NCBI GenBank assembly: GCA_002529455.1
Contig: NYMS01000062.1
Coordinates: 62,001-126,000 of the forward strand
DNA from: Glycomyces fuscus
GTDB lineage: Bacteria; Actinomycetota; Actinomycetes; Streptosporangiales; Streptosporangiaceae
Length of the DNA: 64,000 nucleotides
Direction: 5' to 3'
Positions 27,867-33,992 of the stretch are shown here, piece by piece. Position 1 is the stretch's first letter, and each line of letters starts with the position of its first letter. Position numbers and translations under genes: made by a program. The notes below the pieces were generated by a model. That model was not told where the DNA came from. It saw nothing but the letters and a program-made list of their open reading frames with translations, and did not search any database.

Positions 27867-28586
27867 TCAGACGCGGCGCATGACCGCGACCACCTTGCCG
27901 AGAATGGTGGCGTCGTCGCCGTTGATCGGCTCGTAGGCCTCGTTGCGCGGCATCAGCCACACGTGGCCGCCCTCCTCGCGGCGCAGCACCTTGACGGTCG
28001 CCTCGTCGTCGAGCAGCGCCGCCACGATGTCGCCGTTGTTGGCGTCCTGCTGCTGGCGCACCACCACCATGTCGCCGTCGGTGATGGCGGCGTCGGTCAT
28101 CGAGTCACCGACCACGGTGAGCATGAACAGGCGTCCCTCACCCACCAGCTGACGCGGCAGCGCGAGCACGTCCTCCACCGACTCCTCGGCCAGGATCGGA
28201 CCGCCGGCGGCGATCCGGCCGACCAGCGGCACGGCGGCGGCGCGCGAGAGGTCGATGTCCTCGGGCACCAGGGTCTGGCCCGAGGCGCGCCCGGGCGTGC
28301 GCAGCTCCACCGCGCGCGGCCGGTTCTGGTCGCGGTGCAGGTAGCCCTTGCGCTGGAGGACCTTGAGCTGGTGCGCCACGCTGGACGGGCTGGACAGGCC
28401 GACCGCTTCGCCGATTTCCCTTATCGACGGGGGGAAACCCCGCTCGCGTACATAGCGCTGGATGCAGTTCAGCACGCTCTGCTGGCGTGCGGTGAGTTTG
28501 GGGGCTTCGGGCGTGGACCCGCCCGCGTTCTCCGCTGGTGCGAGAACGGTGGCGGTGTCTGCGGTTCCGGGATTCTCCTCCGGCAC
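27867..28586 (-). CDS. lexA: LexA repressor of the SOS response
   Basis: 239 residues from a GTG at 28586 with GAGGAGG seven bases upstream. The N-terminal winged helix carries [20 protein letters not shown] and [22 protein letters not shown]. The self-cleavage region is intact: the Ala-Gly bond in RIAAGGP (127-128), nucleophile Ser162 in GDSM and general-base Lys199 in ATVKVL. RecA filaments on damaged DNA trigger this cleavage and so free SOS genes. An extended frame reaches back to 28724 but lacks a ribosome-binding site. A recognisable SOS box at 28735-28748 lies in its own promoter, so it is autoregulated. Confidence 0.98.
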
Positions 28587-28734
28587 GGCCGGGCCTCCTC
28601 GGCATTCGGTTCGGTCAGGGCCTGCTTGTGTGACTGGCCACCCCCGGCCCGCGACCGTGCCGACCTGGGGGTCCACGTGATGGCGAAACCGGTGTGAAAT
28701 CAAGGTCAACTTTAGTCGTTGCACACGGTGATAT

Positions 28735-29241: not shown

Positions 29242-29745
29242 GTGCACTGTCCGTTCTGCCGCCATCCGGACACCAGGGTGATCGACAGCAGGTCCACCGA
29301 CGACGGCGCGGCCATCCGGCGCCGCCGGTCCTGCCCCGTCTGCGAGCGCAGGTTCACCACCCAGGAGACCGTCCTGCTGATGGTCGCCAAGCGCTCCGGG
29401 GTCACCGAGCCCTTCAGCCGGACCAAGATCATCGCCGGGGTGCGCCGGGCCTGCCAGGGCCGCCCCGTCTCCGAGGACGCCCTGGCCAAGCTCGGTCAGC
29501 AGGTCGAGGAGGAGATCCGCGGCCGCGGGGTGGCCGAGGTCCCGGCCCACGAGATCGGCCTGGCCATCCTGGGCCCGATGCGCGACCTGGACGAGGTCGC
29601 CTACCTGCACTTCGCCAGCGTCTACCGCGGATTCGAGAGCCTCTCCGACTTCGAGGCCGAGATCGCCAGCCTGCGCCAGGACCGCGAGGCCGAGGCCGGC
29701 AGGGGCACAGGAACCGACCCCCGGAGCGGCGCCACCGCCGGATAG
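29242..29745 (+). CDS. nrdR: Transcriptional repressor NrdR
   Basis: 167 residues from a GTG. The N-terminal zinc ribbon has HCPFC and [10 protein letters not shown]. The ATP-cone domain follows, starting [19 protein letters not shown] and continuing to [21 protein letters not shown]. NrdR senses ATP/dATP and represses ribonucleotide reductase genes. The tail ([15 protein letters not shown]-like) is short and disordered. It is followed 113 bases later by nrdJ, the usual nrdR-nrdJ order of actinomycetes, and a candidate NrdR box lies in the shared promoter, which implies autoregulation. Confidence 0.98.
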
Positions 29746-29858: not shown

Positions 29859-32800
29859 ATGACGGAGACCGCCAACGGCCCGACCGGACGCAAGGGCAGG
29901 GGGAACCGCAAGGGGATCAGGGTGAGGCGCGTCTTCACCTCCCCGGGCACGCACCCCTACGACTCCCTGGAATGGGAGCGCCGCGACGTCGTCATGACCA
30001 ACTGGCGCGACGGCACGGTCAACTTCGAGCAGCGCGGAGTGGAGTTCCCCTCCTCCTGGTCGATGAACGCCACCCAGATCGTGGCCAGCAAGTACTTCCG
30101 CGGCGCGGTCGGCACCCCCGAACGCGAGTGGAGCCTCAAACAGCTCATCGACCGCGTCGTCGGCGTCTACACCGAGACCGGCCGCGAGCACGGCTACTTC
30201 GCCTCCGCCGAGGACGCCGAGGTCTTCGACCACGAGCTCAAGTACGCCCTCGCCCACCAGCTGTTCAGCTTCAACTCCCCGGTGTGGTTCAACGTCGGCA
30301 CGAGCGCGAAAGCGCAGGTGAGCGCCTGTTTCATCCTGTCCGTGGACGACACCATGGAGTCGATCCTGGACTGGTACAAGGAGGAGGGGATCATCTTCAA
30401 GGGCGGGTCCGGCGCGGGTGTGAACCTGTCGCGCATCCGCTCCAGCAAGGAGCTGCTCTCCTCCGGCGGGACCGCCTCCGGGCCCGTCTCCTTCATGCGC
30501 GGCGCCGACGCCTCGGCCGGGACCATCAAGTCCGGCGGAGCCACCCGCCGGGCCGCCAAGATGGTCGTACTGGACGTCGACCACCCCGACATCGAGGACT
30601 TCGTCGAGACCAAGGCCCGCGAGGAGCACAAGATCCGTGCCCTGCGCGACGCCGGGTTCGACGTCGACCTCGGCGGCGACGACATGTTCAGCGTGCAGTA
30701 CCAGAACGCCAACAACTCCGTGCGGGTCTCCGACGCCTTCATGCGCGCCGTGGAGAGCGGCTCGGACTTCGGGCTGACCTCGCGCACCACCGGCGAGGTC
30801 GTCGCCACGGTGGACGCCAGGGAGCTGTTCCAGCGCATGGCCAGGGCCGCCTGGGAGTGCGCGGACCCCGGTATCCAGTACGACGGCACGATCCAGGACT
30901 GGCACACCACGCCCGAAAGCGGACGTATCAGTGCAAGTAATCCGTGCTCGGAATACCTCCACCTGGACGATTCGTCCTGCAACCTGGCCTCGATCAACCT
31001 GTTGAAGTTCCTGCGCGAGGACGACACCTTCGACGTGGAGCGCTTCACCGCGCTCACCGAACTGGTCATCACGGCGATGGACGTCTCCATCACCTTCGCC
31101 GACTTCCCCACGGAGAAGATCGGCGAGACCACCCGCGCCTACCGGCAGCTCGGCATCGGCTACGCCAACCTGGGCGCCCTGCTGATGGCGACCGGCCACG
31201 CCTACGACTCCGACGGCGGGCGCGCCGTCGCCGCCGCCGTGACCTCGCTGATGACCGGCACCGCCTACCGGCGCAGCGCCGAGCTGGCCGGGGTGGTCGG
31301 CCCCTACGACGGCTACCGGCGCAACGAGCAGGCCCACAAGCGGGTCATGCGCAAGCACGCCGCCGCCAACGACGACCTGCGCACCGTCGGGACCCTGGAG
31401 GAGCCGGTCCACGCCGCGGCCACCCGCGAGTGGGCCGAGTGCCTCAGGATCGGCGAGCGCAACGGCTGGCGCAACGCCCAGGCGAGCCTTCTCGCGCCCA
31501 CCGGCTGCCTCACCGGCGACTCCATGGTCACCACCGACCGGGGGCTCGTCCGGCTCACCGAACTGGGCGACGTCTACGGATCCAGGTGGCAGGACCTCTC
31601 CGCCCGGGTCTCCACGGACGAGGGGACCCGTGAGGCGACGAGGTTCTTCGTCAACGGGGAGGAGCCGACCCGGCGTATCGTGACCAAGGGCGGGTACCGG
31701 CTCCAGGGCACGCACACCCACCGGATCAAGGTGGTCTCCCCCCGTACCGGTGACTGGGAGTGGAAGCGCTTCGCCGACATCGCCGAGGGCGACGTCGTTC
31801 CGGTCCAGCTGGGCACCCTGGTCGGGCAGCCCCGCCGTGTGGTGCTGCCGGTCCTGGACCAGGCCTACTACACGGGAGAGCACGACCTGTTCGTGCCCGA
31901 GGCGGTGGACGAGGAACTCGCGGAGCTCGTCGGTTACTTCATGGGCGACGGCAGCCTGCACGCCAAGGGCATCCGCATGTGCGTCGCCGACACCGACGAG
32001 GACGTCGTCGAGCGGCTGCGCATCCTGGCCAAGGGGCTGTTCGGCCTCGCGCCCACGGTGACCGCCGGACAGGGCTGCCAGGAGGTCACCCTGTCGTCGG
32101 TCCGCCTGGCCCGGTGGTGGAAGGCGGCGGGGTTCGCCAAGGACCTGCCCGGTCAGGACCACTCCGGCAAGGGCTGGACCCCCCGGGTGCCCTCCTCGAT
32201 CCTGGAGGCCAACGACCCGGCGGTGTACGCGGCCTTCCTGCGCGGCCTCTTCGAGGCGGACGGCACCGTCCTGGAGGGTGTGCCGAGCATGTCCACCGCG
32301 CACGCCTCCTTCGCCGGAGAGATCCGCACGCTGCTGCTGACCCTGGGCATGGCCTCCACCACGCGCACGACTCAGAGCGGATACGGCGGGGAATGCCACG
32401 TGGTCCGCCTGCGCAACGTCGACCACGCCCTGCGCTTCGGCGAGACCGTCGGATTCCTGGGCGACCGCAAGAACAAGCTCGTCGTCCAACTGGAGCCGGA
32501 CCGCTCGGCCAAGGGCGACCGGATCGTTCTGCCCCGCCAGGTGTGGGACGAGCTGGTACCGGTCGGGCACGCCGCGCGGGGGACGGTCGTGCAGTCGCTG
32601 AGGAAGTACGGTGGCGTGGCCCGGCAGCTGGCCTCGGCCATTCACTCCGAGACGCTCGACGCCAGGCTGGGCCACGTGCTCGGCTACCTCTTCGAGGAGG
32701 TCGGCGCCAACGAGGACGGCGGCGTGCAGCCGACCTACGACATCTCGGTGCCCGACAACGTCACCTATGTCGCCAACGGCCTGGTCAGCCACAACACCAT

Positions 32801-33992
32801 CGGCTTCATGATGGACTGCGACACCACCGGCATCGAGCCGGACTTCTCGCTGGTCAAGTTCAAGAAGCTGGTCGGCGGCGGCTCCATGCAGATCGTCAAC
32901 CAGGCCATCCCGCGCGCGCTGGGCAACCTCGGCTACCAGGACGAGCAGGTCGAGGCCGTCGTCGAGTACGTGTCCGAGAACGGCCACGTCGTGGACGCGC
33001 CCGGCCTGCGCACCGAGCACTACGAGGTGTTCGACTGCGCGATGGGGCGCCGCTACATCCGGCCCATGGGCCACGTGCGGATGATGGCGGCGGTGCAGCC
33101 GTTCCTGTCCGGCGCGATCTCCAAGACGGTGAACGTGCCGGAGGAGGCCTCGGTCGAGGACTTCGAGCACATCTACTTCGAGGGCTGGCGGATGGGCCTG
33201 AAGGCGCTCGCCGTCTACCGCGACAACTGCAAGGTGGGCCAGCCGCTGTCCACCGGCGGGACGCGGGAGAAGGAGGCCGAGCCCGAGGTGCGGACCGTCG
33301 AGGTGCACCGGCCGGTACGGCGCCGCCTGCCCAAGAAGCGGCCGAGCGAGACCACGTCGTTCTCCGTGGGCGGGGCCGAGGGCTACATCACCGCGGGCTC
33401 CTACCCCGACGACGGCCTGGGCGAGGTGTTCATGAAGCTCGGCAAGCAGGGGTCCACCCTGGCCGGGGTGATGGACGCCTTCTCCATCGCGATCTCCATC
33501 GCCCTGCAGTACGGGGTCCCGCTGGAGACCTACGTGGACAAGTTCACGAACATGCGGTTCGACCCGGCGGGCATGACCGACGACCCCGACATCCGCATGG
33601 CCCAGTCGGTGGTGGACTACATCTTCCGCCGCCTGGCACTGGACCACCTGCCCTACGAGGAGCGCGCCGCGCTGGGGGTGCTCTCGGCCGCCGAGCGCCA
33701 GGCGCAGGTGGCGGGCGAGGACCCGGCCCAGGTCGCCGCGCAGGTGGAGTCCTACGCCCAGTCCGCCGCCACCCGCGGGGCGGACGCTGCCGAGGAGGCC
33801 CCGGCGGCTCGCGCGCAGGAGCCGCACGCGGCGGCGGAGCGGCCGACCCGGGCGCACTCCACCGCGGAGCTGATGGAGGGCAAGGGCTTCGTGGCGGACG
33901 CGCCGCTGTGCGTCACCTGCGGCACCAAGATGCGCCCGTCGGGCAGCTGCTACGCCTGTGAGGGCTGCGGCGCCACCAGCGGGTGCAGCTGA
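29859..33992 (+). CDS. nrdJ: Class II (B12-dependent) ribonucleotide reductase with intein
   Basis: 1377 residues as translated; 947 after removal of a 430-residue intein (residues 550-979). The reductase makes deoxynucleotides from ribonucleotides using adenosylcobalamin to form a thiyl radical, needing no oxygen. Visible landmarks are FNSPVWFNVG, the active-site cysteine in SACFILS, the GGSGAGVNLSRIRS loop, NPCSEY (Cys363), the split motif APTG/TIGFMM interrupted by the intein, and a C-terminal cysteine-rich tail with LCVTCGTKM and CYACEGCGATSGC that should re-reduce the active site. The tail is preceded by a linker of Ala, Glu and Arg. It follows nrdR in the same unit and ends in a strong hairpin. 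Codons around NPCSEY are atypical. Confidence 0.98.
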   Translation: MTETANGPTGRKGRGNRKGIRVRRVFTSPGTHPYDSLEWERRDVVMTNWRDGTVNFEQRGVEFPSSWSMNATQIVASKYFRGAVGTPEREWSLKQLIDRVVGVYTETGREHGYFASAEDAEVFDHELKYALAHQLFSFNSPVWFNVGTSAKAQVSACFILSVDDTMESILDWYKEEGIIFKGGSGAGVNLSRIRSSKELLSSGGTASGPVSFMRGADASAGTIKSGGATRRAAKMVVLDVDHPDIEDFVETKAREEHKIRALRDAGFDVDLGGDDMFSVQYQNANNSVRVSDAFMRAVESGSDFGLTSRTTGEVVATVDARELFQRMARAAWECADPGIQYDGTIQDWHTTPESGRISASNPCSEYLHLDDSSCNLASINLLKFLREDDTFDVERFTALTELVITAMDVSITFADFPTEKIGETTRAYRQLGIGYANLGALLMATGHAYDSDGGRAVAAAVTSLMTGTAYRRSAELAGVVGPYDGYRRNEQAHKRVMRKHAAANDDLRTVGTLEEPVHAAATREWAECLRIGERNGWRNAQASLLAPTGCLTGDSMVTTDRGLVRLTELGDVYGSRWQDLSARVSTDEGTREATRFFVNGEEPTRRIVTKGGYRLQGTHTHRIKVVSPRTGDWEWKRFADIAEGDVVPVQLGTLVGQPRRVVLPVLDQAYYTGEHDLFVPEAVDEELAELVGYFMGDGSLHAKGIRMCVADTDEDVVERLRILAKGLFGLAPTVTAGQGCQEVTLSSVRLARWWKAAGFAKDLPGQDHSGKGWTPRVPSSILEANDPAVYAAFLRGLFEADGTVLEGVPSMSTAHASFAGEIRTLLLTLGMASTTRTTQSGYGGECHVVRLRNVDHALRFGETVGFLGDRKNKLVVQLEPDRSAKGDRIVLPRQVWDELVPVGHAARGTVVQSLRKYGGVARQLASAIHSETLDARLGHVLGYLFEEVGANEDGGVQPTYDISVPDNVTYVANGLVSHNTIGFMMDCDTTGIEPDFSLVKFKKLVGGGSMQIVNQAIPRALGNLGYQDEQVEAVVEYVSENGHVVDAPGLRTEHYEVFDCAMGRRYIRPMGHVRMMAAVQPFLSGAISKTVNVPEEASVEDFEHIYFEGWRMGLKALAVYRDNCKVGQPLSTGGTREKEAEPEVRTVEVHRPVRRRLPKKRPSETTSFSVGGAEGYITAGSYPDDGLGEVFMKLGKQGSTLAGVMDAFSIAISIALQYGVPLETYVDKFTNMRFDPAGMTDDPDIRMAQSVVDYIFRRLALDHLPYEERAALGVLSAAERQAQVAGEDPAQVAAQVESYAQSAATRGADAAEEAPAARAQEPHAAAERPTRAHSTAELMEGKGFVADAPLCVTCGTKMRPSGSCYACEGCGATSGCS
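31506..32795 (+). other. Intein with LAGLIDADG endonuclease motifs inside nrdJ
   Basis: 430 residues, starting at Cys550 (CLTGDSMVTTDRG) and ending VSHN; the first extein residue after it is Thr. Splicing block B is GTHTHRIKV, block F is TYDISVPDNVTYVANG and block G is LVSHN with its terminal His-Asn. Two dodecapeptide motifs, LVGYFMGDGSLH and FLRGLFEADGTV, each retain the acidic residue needed for DNA cutting, so the homing endonuclease may be active. Removal rejoins APTG with TIGFMMDCDTTG, the conserved core of class II reductases. Base composition is similar to the host gene. Confidence 0.95.

Follow-up and report, generated by a model that had tools for sequence, protein, structure and literature searches.

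The nrdJ gene in the window, the 64,000-nt stretch of DNA analysed here, likely carries a class 1 intein of full length that belongs to the rir1-g allele and whose LAGLIDADG homing endonuclease probably works, and, as judged from sequence comparisons, this intein would be in turnover in its lineage rather than anciently fixed. The pattern of presence and absence in close relatives suggests that it is still moving between species, and the allele itself appears to have long been present in actinomycetes and to turn over within the genus, which is what a functional homing cycle would predict.

Host gene and intein structure

The nrdJ ORF is open from 29859 to 33992 on the + strand and encodes a 1377-aa precursor including the intein; the whole 1377-aa protein scores as a B12-dependent ribonucleotide reductase NrdJ (NCBIfam PRK06556, 1560 bits). 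Immediately upstream of the ORF is nrdR (29242-29745, +), beyond which lexA is found (27867-28724, −). The intein begins with a TGC codon at 31506, ends with an AAC codon at 32793-32795, and is inserted at PTG/T after NrdJ residue 549. The locus is organized as follows:

29859 to 31505, + strand: N-extein of NrdJ, residues 1-549, ending in ...LLAPTG (ORF; PRK06556 match of the whole protein)
31506 to 32795, + strand: class 1 intein, probable rir1-g allele, 430 aa, C1 to N430 (profiles, residues, empty site in relatives)
31506 to 31811, + strand: putative N-terminal splicing domain, residues 1-102, with block B GTHTH (T69, H72) (residue conservation, splicing-domain fold matches)
31896 to 32450, + strand: predicted LAGLIDADG endonuclease, residues 131-315, with LVGYFMGDG (D148) and FLRGLFEADG (D252) (LAGLIDADG_3 profile, acidic residues, dN/dS)
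32451 to 32678, + strand: variable helical segment, residues 316-391 (helices in the model, highest dN/dS, shortened family members)
32679 to 32795, + strand: putative C-terminal splicing domain, residues 392-430, with blocks F and G, ending in ...GLVSHN (TIGR01443 over its cut-off; H429 and N430 kept)
32796 to 33992, + strand: C-extein of NrdJ including the stop codon, starting with TIGFMMDC, +1 Thr (ORF, junction)

With the intein excised in silico, 947 residues of NrdJ remain, and these align through the junction with the NrdJ proteins of insert-free relatives. In 35 of the 40 genomes sampled from the genus there is no insert at 549, the alignment is continuous there, and the empty site closes exactly at the intein ends. 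The ORF, the junction codons and the empty site thus confirm to the exact position the initial annotation, which had placed an intein at APTG/TIGF in a class II reductase and had proposed a comparison of strains with and without the intein.

The window intein combines a position-1 nucleophile, the block B TxxH that is the signature of class 1 inteins, a terminal His-Asn and a nucleophilic +1 Thr. All 51 aligned rows, in which one intein is entered twice (as L047 and L125), retain C1, T69, H72, H429 and N430. PMC5050341 characterises class 1 inteins by their position-1 nucleophile. In searches with the intein alone, intein_Cterm (TIGR01443) scored over its cut-off (25.4 vs 15.6 bits), intein_Nterm just under (22.4 vs 24.5 bits), and Pfam Intein_splicing also under (27.8 vs 35.8 bits, E 2.5e-6); a whole-genome search with the latter profile did not report the nrdJ locus. 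Since the generic splicing profiles are weak here, the call rests on the residues, the fold and the empty-site comparison.

An AlphaFold model of the intein, built from a 43-row alignment, has a mean pLDDT of 89.9 and a pTM of 0.92. Its best structural match is the TliVMA intein 7qss (E 7.5e-25, TM 0.74), with 7qsu matching at Z 33.3 over 330 residues at 3.3 Å, followed by PhoVMA, 2cw7 and PI-PfuI. Pfam LAGLIDADG_3 matches the intein in two stretches (71.6 bits vs cut-off 22.5), both acidic residues, D148 and D252, are kept in their motifs, and the model aligns to I-Tsp061I over residues 131-334 and to I-DmoI over 131-328, all pointing to a two-motif, two-lobed LAGLIDADG endonuclease. The splicing blocks and the VSHN/T junction that had been read from the letters of the window are present as described, as are the two motifs, whose acidic residues survived the alignment that had been named as their possible refutation.

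Judging from these residues and the fold, nrdJ would be translated as a 1377-residue precursor in which Cys1 would begin an N-S acyl shift, Thr+1 would receive the N-extein, and Asn430 would cyclise with the aid of His429, leaving NrdJ at 947 residues and releasing the endonuclease as a separate protein of 430 residues. Once free, this enzyme would be predicted to cleave intein-free nrdJ at its conserved PTG-T codons, after which repair templated by the occupied copy would install the intein together with flanking DNA.

Distribution of nrdJ inteins

The 40 species-level Nocardiopsis genomes form a natural comparison set: nrdJ is present in each, the gene has three intein sites, 13 of the genomes carry one or more inteins, and in one trio the presence and absence of the intein can be compared directly with the exchange of flanks. 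The nrdJ matches in G257 and G263 are partial or broken, and that of G259, whose intein is identical to that of L047 (Candidatus Nocardiopsis merdipullorum) and thereby places the genus as Nocardiopsis, has a TAG in frame. Inteins occur at SA/C after residue 156 (6/40), at NP/C after 362 (4/40) and at PTG/T after 549 (5/40). On the NrdJ tree, these sites require six, four and five changes, respectively, which equals the number of carriers at each site; such counts make no distinction between gain and loss, and the five changes at 549 rest partly on the G175+G251 branch, which is not starred (support 92/84). Loss-only histories on the midpoint-rooted tree would take 15, 12 and 11 losses, the last figure being counted in the 36 genomes under the carriers' common ancestor. 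The genome closest to the window by NrdJ, G251 (97% over 2841 columns; 98% identity in the C-extein), has an empty site 549. Within 60 bases of this site, no column separates carriers from empty genomes.

In the family sample, the allele was found at 60% identity or more in 21 of 250 genomes (a count of rows), and each of the 46 loci from species genomes is inserted at PTG/T. Phages and plasmids provided no candidate for a recent vector, as all 45 phage and 237 plasmid records with matches lay below 60% identity; the 15 matches listed for each were 24-27% identical and, where annotated, corresponded to terminase, RecA, helicase, LAGLIDADG endonuclease or hypothetical protein, and IMG/VR yielded one matching contig, at 21% identity.

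The other two sites of the genus are occupied by inteins of 359 aa (SA/C, six genomes) and 400-402 aa (NP/C, four genomes), at loci L109 (G175), L110, L113, L114, L129, L136, L138, L141, L142 and L145, and the four NP/C copies end in ...VVAN, the usual penultimate His being absent. In L013, L022, L026, L033, L041 and L044 the NrdJ frames have insertions at all three sites, and in L013, L033, L037 and L041 some insertions at 156 or 363 are just 136-143 aa, the size of endonuclease-free mini-inteins. In L020 (Actinomadura physcomitrii), 441 residues are inserted behind NrdJ reference residue 659, a possible fourth site. In the L125/L047 intein, Asp148 is replaced by Glu and Asp252 by Asn, and its nrdJ has an in-frame TAG, representing either decay or a metagenome assembly error.

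Divergence, selection and competing explanations

Between the window and G175 (taken to be N. dassonvillei), synonymous differences amount to 6.2% in the intein, in a genus comparison that omitted the 6 of 40 loci failing the motif match (site counts and the NrdJ tree cover all 40), vs ~9.6% when the exteins are taken whole, and the resulting ratio of 0.64 has an interval that touches 1 (95%, 0.39-1.00). The same ratio is 1.35, 1.31 and 1.39 for the window and the other three genus carriers, and 1.00 for G199-G252. With the 380 nearest extein residues as a yardstick, the window-G175 ratio becomes 1.10, and is not below 1 because the near flanks are themselves unusually alike. Near/far extein ratios are 0.31 for G175-G251 (Fisher p = 0.0003), 0.44 for window-G251 (p = 0.003) and 0.45 for window-G175 (p = 0.0025), ranking first to third among 780 genus pairs (median 0.92); these three are mutually dependent, several of the next-lowest pairs come from the same part of the tree, and the test was run after the sliding counts were already known, on a near region set earlier for another purpose. 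The low-difference tract between G175 and G251 extends from ~31000 to 33200 and is roughly centred on the insertion, and the flanks of the occupied G175 are closer to those of the empty G251 than to those of the window.

We read the homogenised flanks of this trio as a probable footprint of recombination at the intein site. It does not fit simple homing with a donor resembling the window, because the occupied G175 is most similar to the empty G251. With somewhat less than even confidence, we propose that the homing cycle has been caught in the act in the window, N. dassonvillei and G251: the intein and ~0.4-0.5 kb of flank on each side may have been exchanged since the species split, with G251 having lost the intein, or G175 having gained it, on a near-identical flank. 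If so, the NrdJ of this genus would be an arena of three sites, with inteins gained and lost at one set of three conserved motifs.

Over the wider set, three of 13 close pairs have inteins that are clearly more similar than their exteins: L005/L059 (ratio 0.23; pS 0.030 vs 0.131), L024/L025 (0.42; 0.045 vs 0.107) and L017/L018 (0.53; 0.069 vs 0.130). Two other pairs are slightly below 1 (0.98, 0.93), and eight are above it, including window-G175 on the near-flank measure. The median ratio is 1.26 over 1485 pairs of 55 of the 56 inteins, L027 being omitted for its short flank; the downstream flanks of L036 and L047 are also short, and that of L020 enters its own insertion at 659, which spoils its extein values in the ratios and the extein tree, the median without L020 being again 1.26 (1431 pairs). 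In outline, the intein tree (supports are SH-aLRT values of a quick search only) follows the host families and the extein tree, departing from them in that the Amycolatopsis inteins lie beside those of Streptosporangiales and not those of Pseudonocardia. This agreement indicates that much of the history of the allele may be vertical, with losses; in our reading, rir1-g would have a long history in actinomycetes, its exchange being mostly between close relatives.

The nuclease is under purifying selection across the family. Summed over 16 hand-chosen and partly overlapping pairs, dN/dS is 0.199 and 0.194 in the nuclease halves, 0.179 in the N-splicing part and 0.174 in the extein, and is highest in the helical segment 316-391 (0.32, vs 0.13-0.20 elsewhere in the intein); the medians over all pairs are 0.22 and 0.27 in the two halves of the nuclease, 0.23 in the N-splicing and 0.17 in the C-splicing part, 0.50 in the helical segment and 0.30 in the extein. 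The second nuclease half in window-G175 has 7 nonsynonymous vs 6 synonymous changes, which, in so small a sample, is also compatible with relaxed constraint.

The foremost alternative, which we regard as rather unlikely, is that of an old vertical resident, present in the ancestor of these actinomycetes, which most lineages would have lost through recombination with alleles lacking it, and whose endonuclease does little today. It would account for the family-level groups that are mostly shared by the two trees, for the host-like codon usage, and for the ratios above 1 in three of the four window comparisons and most close pairs. However, it demands the 11 losses at site 549 alone, each precise loss being itself a recombination event, and does not agree with the conserved nuclease motifs and dN/dS, or with inteins clearly younger than their exteins in the three close pairs and, against the whole gene, in window-G175. 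Codon usage does not decide the matter: the intein has a GC3 of 0.942 vs 0.937 on average in 34 putative genes of the window, picked by our own GC-frame rule, and lies in the 62nd percentile of a CAI-like index. Over the 56 inteins, the GC3 of an intein follows that of its extein (r = 0.78). Dating by codon usage was rejected, since the other carriers are also high-GC actinomycetes and share this base composition. The initial annotation had taken adapted codon usage as a sign of long residence: the host-like usage stands, and a long time fits the allele as a whole, but not this lineage, where five carriers in 40, the low ratio of intein to whole-extein divergence and the homogenisation of the flanks speak of recent turnover. 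The window intein is thus a warning that host-like codon usage is no guide to intein age.

It is improbable that the window harbours a decaying intein, which still splices but has a dead endonuclease. Such decay is seen in the family, with 4 of 55 distinct inteins devoid of an acidic residue at one or both catalytic positions and 6 of 56 reduced to 377-395 aa, i.e. 35-53 residues shorter than the window intein; yet the window copy is full length, belongs with the 51 that have D/E at both positions, and yields a confident fold. Two of the short inteins align as residues 1-332 plus 384-430 and 1-336 plus 391-430 of the window intein, and by this comparison the helical segment 316-391 is variable and apparently dispensable; it is possibly an additional DNA-contact part.

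NrdJ should need splicing, as the initial annotation had reasonably supposed, because site 549 lies inside the barrel-domain match. The genome has class I genes as well, for an alpha subunit (PRK07207, 1479 bits, cut-off 965) and, adjoining it, a beta subunit (PRK07209, 682.5 bits, cut-off 309), on a contig to be viewed with the caveat of a 5.27% contamination estimate for the assembly, so that NrdJ is not the sole reductase and growth need not depend on splicing of its intein. A B12 riboswitch in front of the class I genes was considered and rejected, as the 6.5 kb around them gave no Rfam match of any kind; in the window itself the Rfam matches were two tRNAs and nothing else. That the intein acts as a switch delaying NrdJ maturation under stress is highly improbable: other inteins are known to splice conditionally, and the three genus sites do interrupt short conserved motifs, SA/C, NP/C and PTG/T, which we take to be active-site motifs of NrdJ, but close relatives live without the intein and its presence pattern shows no maintenance.

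Two further loci of this genome deserve mention. A second Ribonuc_red_sm match over its cut-off (55.6 bits) lies apart from nrdB at L170 (G000 C49:110179-110766), and a probable second intein is located at L001 (G000 C56:275908-276702, −) inside a frame scoring as DNA primase DnaG (372 bits, cut-off 283.6), with weak profile matches (Intein_splicing 24 bits, cut-off 35.8; intein_Nterm 20.4 bits, cut-off 24.5).

Relationship to known inteins

In PMC4071816, N. dassonvillei DSM 43111 (YP_003681238.1), Nocardiopsis sp. CNS639 and Thermomonospora curvata DSM 43183 are tabulated under rir1-g, and T. curvata appears there only once, under this allele. G140, which we take to be T. curvata DSM 43183, has a single NrdJ intein, at residue 549, and this links site 549 to rir1-g; with G140 so taken, the window intein is assigned to an already published allele. 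By itself, it is an ordinary full-length rir1-g intein of a catalogued type.

Its nearest known counterpart is the N. dassonvillei intein (G175, taken as the type strain DSM 43111), which occupies the same PTG/T site of the same gene, is likewise 430 aa long and is 96% identical to it, although the G175 nrdJ has a second intein at NP/C and the window nrdJ has one intein only. The T. curvata intein shares the PTG/T site but belongs to another genus, with only 73% identity. The TliVMA intein (7qss, 7qsu) resembles the window intein over the whole length of its fold, a splicing domain combined with a LAGLIDADG endonuclease, but differs in residing in a V-ATPase rather than in NrdJ, and is only 19-26% identical.
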